Part shown: positions 9,808 to 10,341 of the stretch, in pieces | How positions within the stretch are numbered: the stretch's first letter is position 1 | How the letters are laid out: every line of letters starts with the position of its first letter | Origin: a virus | Strand: one strand, 5' to 3' | Length of the DNA: 20,412 nt | IMG/VR virus record: IMGVR_UViG_3300022074_000475 | Coordinates: 1 to 20,412 of that record | Program-made: the position numbers and the translations under genes | Notes under the pieces: generated by a model | Databases searched by the model: none | Told to the model about the DNA's origin: nothing | The model's input: only the letters and a program-made list of their open reading frames with translations

Positions 9808-9832
9808 AGTGTATTCTCCTTATTTTAAACAG

Positions 9833-9858
9833 GTACTAGCTGATGATTCAGCTAATAC
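9833..9858 (-). other. Hairpin in the leader of the leftward transcript
   Basis: TAGCTGA (9837-9843) and TCAGCTA (9848-9854) flank a 4-base loop. On the minus strand four more pairs (including one U-G) extend it to 11 bp; the plus strand has a C-A mismatch at that point. It lies between the proposed leftward start point (about 9865) and the first ribosome binding site, so it would be a 5' stabilising or regulatory stem of the early message. Confidence 0.55.
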
Positions 9859-9871
9859 AATTACTGTCAGC

Positions 9872-9899
9872 ATTATGGATGGAGACATTGTCTTGTCCA
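9872..9899 (-). promoter_or_regulatory. Leftward sigma70-like promoter
   Basis: On the minus strand TGGACA (9899-9894) and CATAAT (9877-9872) are separated by 16 bases; each differs from the sigma70 consensus at one position. Transcription would begin near 9865 and enter the leftward early cluster through the 9833-9858 hairpin. It is the best leftward match I found in the gap. Confidence 0.45.
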
Positions 9900-9901
9900 G
9901 A

Positions 9902-10011
9902 TGCAGGCGGTAGCCTCATGCAGCGATCGGCTGTGCCGATCAAGAAGAAATAATGTGGGAATCAAATGCAAGGCATTTGACGCTTGTCTTCTTGACTAGG
10001 CAATTCCCATA
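9902..10011. promoter_or_regulatory. Inverted-repeat cluster between divergent promoters, pseudoknot order
   Basis: Between and across the two promoters lie: an imperfect hairpin at 9902-9922; the dyad GATCGGC-TGT-GCCGATC (9925-9941); TCAAGAAGA (9940-9948) with TCTTCTTGA (9987-9995); TGGGAAT (9956-9962) with ATTCCCA (10003-10009), extendable to 9 bp on the plus strand; and TCAAATGC-AAG-GCATTTGA (9962-9980). The two long-range pairs interlock (A-B-C-C'-A'-B'), the topology of a pseudoknot with an inner hairpin. As DNA, the short dyads are good operator candidates, one next to the rightward -35. As RNA, the order suggests a folded element. The sequence alone does not decide. Confidence 0.55.
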
Positions 10012-10019
10012 CATATGAT
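9992..10019 (+). promoter_or_regulatory. Rightward sigma70-like promoter
   Basis: TTGACT (9992-9997) and TATGAT (10014-10019) are 16 bases apart, each one mismatch from consensus. Transcription would begin near 10026 and run through a structured leader into the genes from 10342 on. The -35 overlaps the arm 9987-9995 of a long inverted repeat and the spacer contains the arm 10003-10009, so folding or a bound protein would block it. Confidence 0.5.
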
Positions 10020-10025
10020 GTCAGT

Positions 10026-10340
10026 AAGCCGTGTTAGGTTCTCGCCGAATAGAACCATTGCCAGACCAACATAGCATTACATCACTTCCTTATACTAAAG
10101 TCATGAAGTCTTGTAATGCAGAAGACACTTACTTCTTAAATGCATTGACGCTCTTTGAAGCTGAGAAAGCGGTCGAATGCACAGTCGAACTGAGACATTC
10201 AGAATCAATTTCCCCAACGCATTCAAAGCGTCAATTCAAAAGCACGGGGTTTTAGAAGACCCCACACATCAACCCTGTAACGACAGCGTATGATGATATA
10301 AGGGGGGGTTTAAACGAACACTAATCAAATGGGGGGAACA
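10026..10340 (+). ncRNA. Structured leader of the rightward transcript (candidate ncRNA or antitermination leader)
   Basis: About 315 non-coding bases between the proposed start point and the first rightward gene contain consecutive stems: GGTTCT/AGAACC (10037-10056); GCATTACA/TGTAATGC (10074-10081 with 10112-10119) with an inner 5-bp stem; AGAAG/CTTCT with a 7-base loop (10120-10136); ATTGACGCT/AGCGTCAAT (10144-10152 with 10227-10235) enclosing GAATGC/GCATTC and CAGT-CGA-ACTG; and GGGGT/ACCCC (10246-10263). G7 (10302-10308) and G6 (10331-10336) runs follow. I find no RNase P, tmRNA, tRNA, group I intron or named riboswitch consensus. An antitermination (put-like) leader or a separate RNA are both possible. 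Confidence 0.5.
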
Positions 10341-10341
10341 T

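Follow-up and report, generated by a model that had tools for sequence, protein, structure and literature searches.

What do the inverted repeats that crowd the boundary between two divergent gene blocks of a marine phage build together, and does the product act as DNA, act as RNA or merely record how the DNA was copied? The window, i.e., the whole stretch of DNA analysed here (20,412 nucleotides; IMG/VR record IMGVR_UViG_3300022074_000475), is a viral contig in which the genes up to 9807 are small, mostly point leftward, and are probably the early genes; the rightward block, from 10342, is composed of a small ORF followed by genes for a 2OG-Fe(II) oxygenase, terminase, portal, scaffold, and capsid. 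The source phage is marine and related to SAR11 phages; the closest match of its portal was the portal of Pelagibacter phage HTVC106P (56%). The gap between the two blocks (9808-10341) was found to be present in several IMG/VR contigs, while comparison with the DNA of isolated phages returned a chance match alone. Additional relatives were sought by the pattern of a leader hairpin, by the leftward gene of the L025 clade, and by a scan of a genome collection, and none were new.

Within this gap, at 9902-10011, an earlier note had described interlocked inverted repeats lying between divergent promoters and had proposed either a pseudoknotted RNA or a dense operator array. All of the repeats were recovered where the note had placed them, in the order A-B-C-A′-B′:

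9940-9948 and 9987-9995: arms A and A′ (TCAAGAAGA and TCTTCTTGA), 9 bp.
9956-9962 and 10003-10009: arms B and B′ (TGGGAAT and ATTCCCA), 7 bp.
9962-9969 and 9973-9980: hairpin C (TCAAATGC and GCATTTGA), 8 bp.
9925-9931 and 9935-9941: hairpin D (GATCGGC and GCCGATC with a TGT loop), near the tip of the rod described below.

The claimed extension of B/B′ by a G-U (9955-10010) and a T-A pair (9954-10011) was likewise present. Two corrections apply: two bases (9940-9941) are common to A and the right arm of D, and base 9962 is common to B and C, so that the four helices cannot be complete at the same time. None of 2,000 dinucleotide shuffles of these 110 bases (9902-10011) reached four perfect arms of at least 7 bp (shuffle mean 0.31), and this stretch scored highest among 370 sliding stretches of the window. 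A 9-bp arm occurred in 2.4% of the shuffles and a crossing 9 + 7 bp pair in 0.2%. The suggestion that the cluster is unlikely by chance is thus borne out for the density of arms but not for A, which by itself is not strong evidence because the stretch had been picked out of 20 kb. Full A and B were confined to the window and L003, a near-identical relative; hairpin C was found in these two and, with a paired change, in L007, and was absent from the other relatives. Hairpin D (9925-9941) persisted in every relative, with A-T and T-A swapped pairwise, and L007 carries two tandem copies of it. Across seven homologues, 62% of the cells were paired for A (the alignable part of A/A′), 50% for B, and 71% for C, and covariation in these helices showed no clear excess over shuffles. 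A search of Rfam gave no family at the gathering score and chance-level matches only at a relaxed threshold, leaving the idea of an HDV-like ribozyme without support at either setting; the models of the large phage RNAs GOLLD and ROOL also had no match.

The placement between divergent promoters agreed with our predictions, in which two sigma70-like sites flank the cluster at the boundary of the leftward and late genes:

9992-10019, plus strand: PR, predicted rightward sigma70-like promoter (TTGACT-16-TATGAT, 10 of 12 consensus positions), in the right arm of the rod.
9872-9899, minus strand: PL, candidate leftward sigma70-like promoter (TGGACA-16-CATAAT), in the left arm of the rod.

PR was the best sigma70-like site in the region and is conserved in close relatives; its -10 element occupied one and the same alignment position in each of the nine phages scanned, and its -35 element was weak in L006. 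PL was weaker than PR; it was strong in L007 (TTGACA-18-TAAGAT) and weaker or not found in the others. A′ overlaps the -35 element of PR, and B′ lies within its spacer. Since the predicted start points (about 10026 for PR and 9862 for PL) both fall outside of the cluster, the cluster would be absent from both predicted transcripts.

When the fold was left unconstrained, the cluster proved to be part of a larger structure, here termed the rod, that was recovered in all eight homologues folded:

9852-10037, no strand assigned: rod element, a long imperfect inverted repeat bridging both divergent promoters.
9852-9858 and 10031-10037: closing helix of the rod (CTAATAC and GTGTTAG in the window).

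The closing helix reads CTAACAC/GTGTTAG in most homologues and is followed by TTACT/AGTAA in most; below its tip the rod is a long stem with small bulges, and the branched tip carries hairpin D. B′ belongs to this long stem, and A/A′ can form nested within the rod in the window and its near-identical relatives. The consensus structure of a seven-sequence alignment has 66 pairs, with 90.7% of cells paired and 13 pairs showing double changes. This covariation was reached by none of 500 shuffles, and pairing fell to 30-42% in slid versions of the consensus, with the qualification that these controls do not remove relatedness (about five distinct lineages are represented) and that the tested sequences also served to build the structure. 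Matches to a covariance model of the rod were confined to this clade. No conserved promoter was found to the left of the rod, and no predicted promoter gives a transcript that holds all of it.

Comparison between phages was less exposed to these limits of kinship and circularity in two cases. First, L071 and L072, which are 94.9% identical over the compared stretch, differ by two double changes at paired positions where 0.11-0.14 were expected. Second, L073 and L075 (contigs of L006 and L007) carry unrelated versions of some 150-180 bp that do not align, bordered by sequence 96.8% identical on one side and 97.8% on the other, yet both versions fold into the rod; the swapped promoter cassette spans about -350 to -203 relative to the leader motif. 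More generally, the PL and PR regions are imperfect inverted copies of each other, and each phage has its own version. The arm-versus-arm score within a phage was 46-59, compared with 25.6 ± 4.0 for shuffled arms and mostly 23-46 for arms from different lineages; the exceptions were the left arm of L007 against the right arm of the window (60.7) and the arms of L005, L071, and L072, which were interchangeable. Arms therefore match best inside a phage or among close kin, as judged from this matrix of arm scores (folding of chimeras was dropped because hairpin C distorted it). Because the arms change together between related phages, the pairing is kept while the letters are not. The raw inverted-repeat score places the locus first in L071, L073, and L075 and third in the window itself, so it is the comparison between phages, not the score, that carries the argument. 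As to anatomy, we consider it highly probable that 9852-10037 forms a single unit: an imperfect hairpin that carries promoters, lies where divergent genes part, and is kept by complementarity.

A second type of hairpin was detected in the same gap of more distant relatives, of the L025/L050/L054 kind, where the arms of the inverted repeat are nearly 200 nt and the hairpin is about 400 nt long. In L025, L026, L050, and L054 it lies about 290-700 bases upstream of the oxygenase gene, and its left arm extends over the first part of a sequence-conserved leftward gene. Plus-strand folds had z-scores of -12.0 (L025), -9.1 (L050), and -8.9 (L054), whereas control stretches gave about +1 to -3.5. A weaker version of the repeat was found in L052, L053, and L055, and no outstanding repeat in the corresponding gap of L017, L021, L037, L042, or HTVC106P. 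In L025 and L050 the center of the hairpin resembles a terminator hairpin when read in either direction. A count of wobble pairs that overwhelmingly favors an RNA in this clade holds, under looser alignment settings, only for L025 and L026.

How the rod works is less certain than its anatomy, and every specific mechanism is put at less than an even chance. The reading that we favor, tentatively and from sequence comparison, is that the rod is a cis-acting DNA control element, in stem-loop or cruciform form, at the boundary between the late genes and the leftward, probably early genes. Host RNA polymerase would use the predicted PL leftward and the predicted PR rightward, and rightward transcription would begin at the base of the stem, giving an RNA headed by a conserved leader of about 315 nt. 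Extrusion of the stem might be aided by the negative supercoiling that divergent transcription generates; alternatively, a putative D-binding protein might assist pairing of the arms centered on palindrome D. Pairing of the arms may then hide or re-expose PL and PR together, because the two promoters sit in opposite arms and would be gated jointly. That one pairing event gates both gene blocks through promoters written into the two arms, as the early/late control of SAR11-type phages with a 400-nt version in a sister clade, is a broader proposal that we regard as somewhat unlikely. Known structured RNAs are usually richer in G-U pairs than these folds, which have 2-4 on the plus strand and 4-6 on the minus strand; with so few, a DNA stem or homogenization driven by copying is as plausible as an RNA, and together with the lack of a predicted transcript holding the whole rod they fit DNA better than RNA. 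The cassette swap, in which both versions fold into the rod, also counts for the DNA switch, as do the predicted promoters in both arms, the covarying rod of the homologues, the best match of arms within a phage or its close kin, and hairpin D with its paired changes and its duplication in L007. Counting against it are the bulged stem and the poorly conserved PL; an imperfect stem with bulges every few base pairs extrudes poorly as a cruciform without help. In addition, the plus strand was more stable than the minus strand in seven of eight homologues, a bias that a pure DNA element does not need.

The nearest precedent for a DNA stem is phage phi29, in which a DNA hairpin at A2c/A2b-A3, induced by the proteins p4 and p6, is held to switch divergently oriented promoters of early and late genes (PMC3100819). 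In phi29 the early promoters face leftward, the late promoters face rightward, and the two kinds lie close together (PMC3100819), as they do here for promoters that are predicted and a leftward block that is probably early. The two differ in that p4 and p6 induce the phi29 hairpin, whereas here the arms themselves are complementary. No regulator such as p4 or p6 was matched among the leftward proteins scanned, which were a part of the ORFs and mostly had no family match. Promoters of the virion RNA polymerase of coliphage N4 are short hairpins with a 3-base loop that function in supercoiled double-stranded DNA and need this very large enzyme. Hairpin D is also a short hairpin with a 3-base loop, but the promoters here look sigma70-type, and no ORF of the size of the N4 virion RNA polymerase was among those listed in a 32-kb relative (an incomplete contig). 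A scan of eight related records for phage RNA polymerase (PF00940) gave no match, but the control genomes gave none either, so the negative carries no weight. A conserved promoter-bearing hairpin at a gene-block boundary is a compact, testable candidate for an early/late switch, and the locus also shows two arms changing in concert in nature, including a complete exchange of the cassette between phages that are nearly identical elsewhere. If the DNA switch is real, its arms change freely but in concert, and the L025-type 400-nt version reaches into the first leftward gene.

That the pairing is a by-product is unlikely in our judgment, though it deserves serious weight. Here the rod would be a homogenized inverted duplication, with PL and PR as inverted copies whose arms are kept alike by template switching or gene conversion during replication, and with the promoters and perhaps D as the only functional parts. 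Template switching is reported to give rise to stems and to preserve them (PMC8794818). The paired changes between near-identical phages are its expected product, the similarity of the arms takes in the promoter hexamers and the start regions, and the repeat of the L025 clade runs into coding sequence. Copying should, however, give clean stems, and bulges and mismatches persist here, several of them at the same positions across lineages; strong repeats also recur at this locus in several lineages. The rod thus resembles the quasipalindromes left by template switches (PMC8794818) in being an imperfect inverted repeat with paired changes but differs from them in its one fixed locus, its presence in several lineages, its recurring bulges, and the two promoters in its arms.

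Quite unlikely, by our estimate, is a structured plus-strand RNA, some 190 nt long (and some 400 nt in the L025 clade), that would be made from an unrecognized promoter to the left and act as a regulatory or antisense RNA on the start of the leftward genes. The conserved fold and its covariation above shuffles (seven related sequences, with the structure drawn from the same set) are what such an RNA would leave, and the greater stability of the plus strand in seven of eight homologues points the same way, as does the fold of L025, whose z-score is -12.0 on the plus strand versus -5.9 on the minus strand. Non-Watson-Crick transition columns in L025 were 11 G.T or T.G versus 1 A.C on the plus strand, but this wobble bias was weak or absent in other lineages (8:6, 8:5, 6:5, and 3:3). 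The low wobble content and the lack of a conserved promoter left of the rod speak against an RNA, and PR and PL would have to lie inside the RNA itself.

The dense operator array proposed earlier, with D as the main site of a phage regulator and the copies at the promoter flanks as secondary sites, fares worse and is improbable. One part of it stood: D is a 17-bp palindrome between both -35 boxes and is kept in every relative, besides being duplicated in L007. The other part is disfavored: the promoter flanks were replaced wholesale while the 4.7 kb leftward stayed 96.8% identical, and a regulator encoded in this 4.7 kb would thus be unlikely to have operators specific to the flanks; the swap also speaks against operators at the promoter flanks as the sole cause. 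The paired A-T/T-A changes of D, with no asymmetric intermediates, fit pairing better than a degenerate site, and no helix-turn-helix protein was found among the proteins scanned (a subset of the ORFs, in which small proteins may be missed). Lambdoid divergent control regions have divergent promoters, shared operators, and related sequence elements at both promoters. Related elements occur at both promoters here too; the difference is that the flanks change wholesale beside an unchanged 4.7 kb and that the match spans the arms rather than short operators alone. The crossing of A and B around hairpin C as a pseudoknot, possibly ribozyme-like, has a negligible chance, for although its arms are exact in the window and the crossing arrangement is rare in shuffles, its helices are not conserved, B′ sits in the long stem of the rod, and Rfam gave no match.

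Outside of the rod, the gap holds further structures:

10026-10341, plus strand: conserved leader from PR to the first rightward gene, seen in alignments, about 315 nt.
10074-10119, plus strand: leader hairpin GCATTACATCACTTC...GAAGTCTTGTAATGC, with a paired A-T to G-C change, and G-C to A-T in L079.
9833-9858, minus strand: hairpin in the predicted leftward mRNA leader, with paired changes and wobbles that fit the minus strand.
10242-10267, minus strand: terminator-like hairpin for leftward transcription, whose stem in relatives is complete only as the minus strand.

The rightward leader is strongly conserved, more so than the 9902-10011 cluster, and its consensus fold beat column-shuffled alignments on both strands (z = -5.0 and -5.8). 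The hairpin at 9833-9858 and the rod are alternatives, because its right arm overlaps the closing helix. There are hints that leftward transcription enters the gap; the terminator-like hairpin (10267-10242) faces leftward, and the larger genes to its right are all rightward. The word TTGACGCT occurs three times, at 10144-10151, 10228-10235, and 9977-9984, with one copy inverted. In the leader, its placement allows mutually exclusive helices, which might pair 10141-10152 with either 10169-10182 or 10228-10235, as in switching leaders. Two other readings of the leader were rejected: letters resembling boxA/boxB near 10149 are in a variable loop and are not kept in relatives, and an ORF (10031-10255) has its frame broken by indels in relatives.

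Some minor observations were made on the wider genomes. The 73,595-base contig IMGVR_UViG_3300030376_002698 (L005 and L032) has two diverged oxygenase loci 40 kb apart and, because of these two copies, may be a chimaera of two phages. A ParB-like/GmrSD_N protein is encoded in the leftward block of L081 (8023-8784) and has no counterpart in the ORF list of the window; hairpin D is common to the window and L081, while this protein was seen in L081 alone of the two. Finally, runs of G followed by T (GGGGTTT to GGGGGGGTTTT) are present in the window at 10245-10251 and 10302-10311 and in the same gap of most relatives; in many of them there are usually two such runs, separated by about 60-125 nt and located just ahead of the rightward genes, and HTVC106P (L080) has one near 35070, before its terminase gene; a packaging site or a protein site would be our guesses for these runs.
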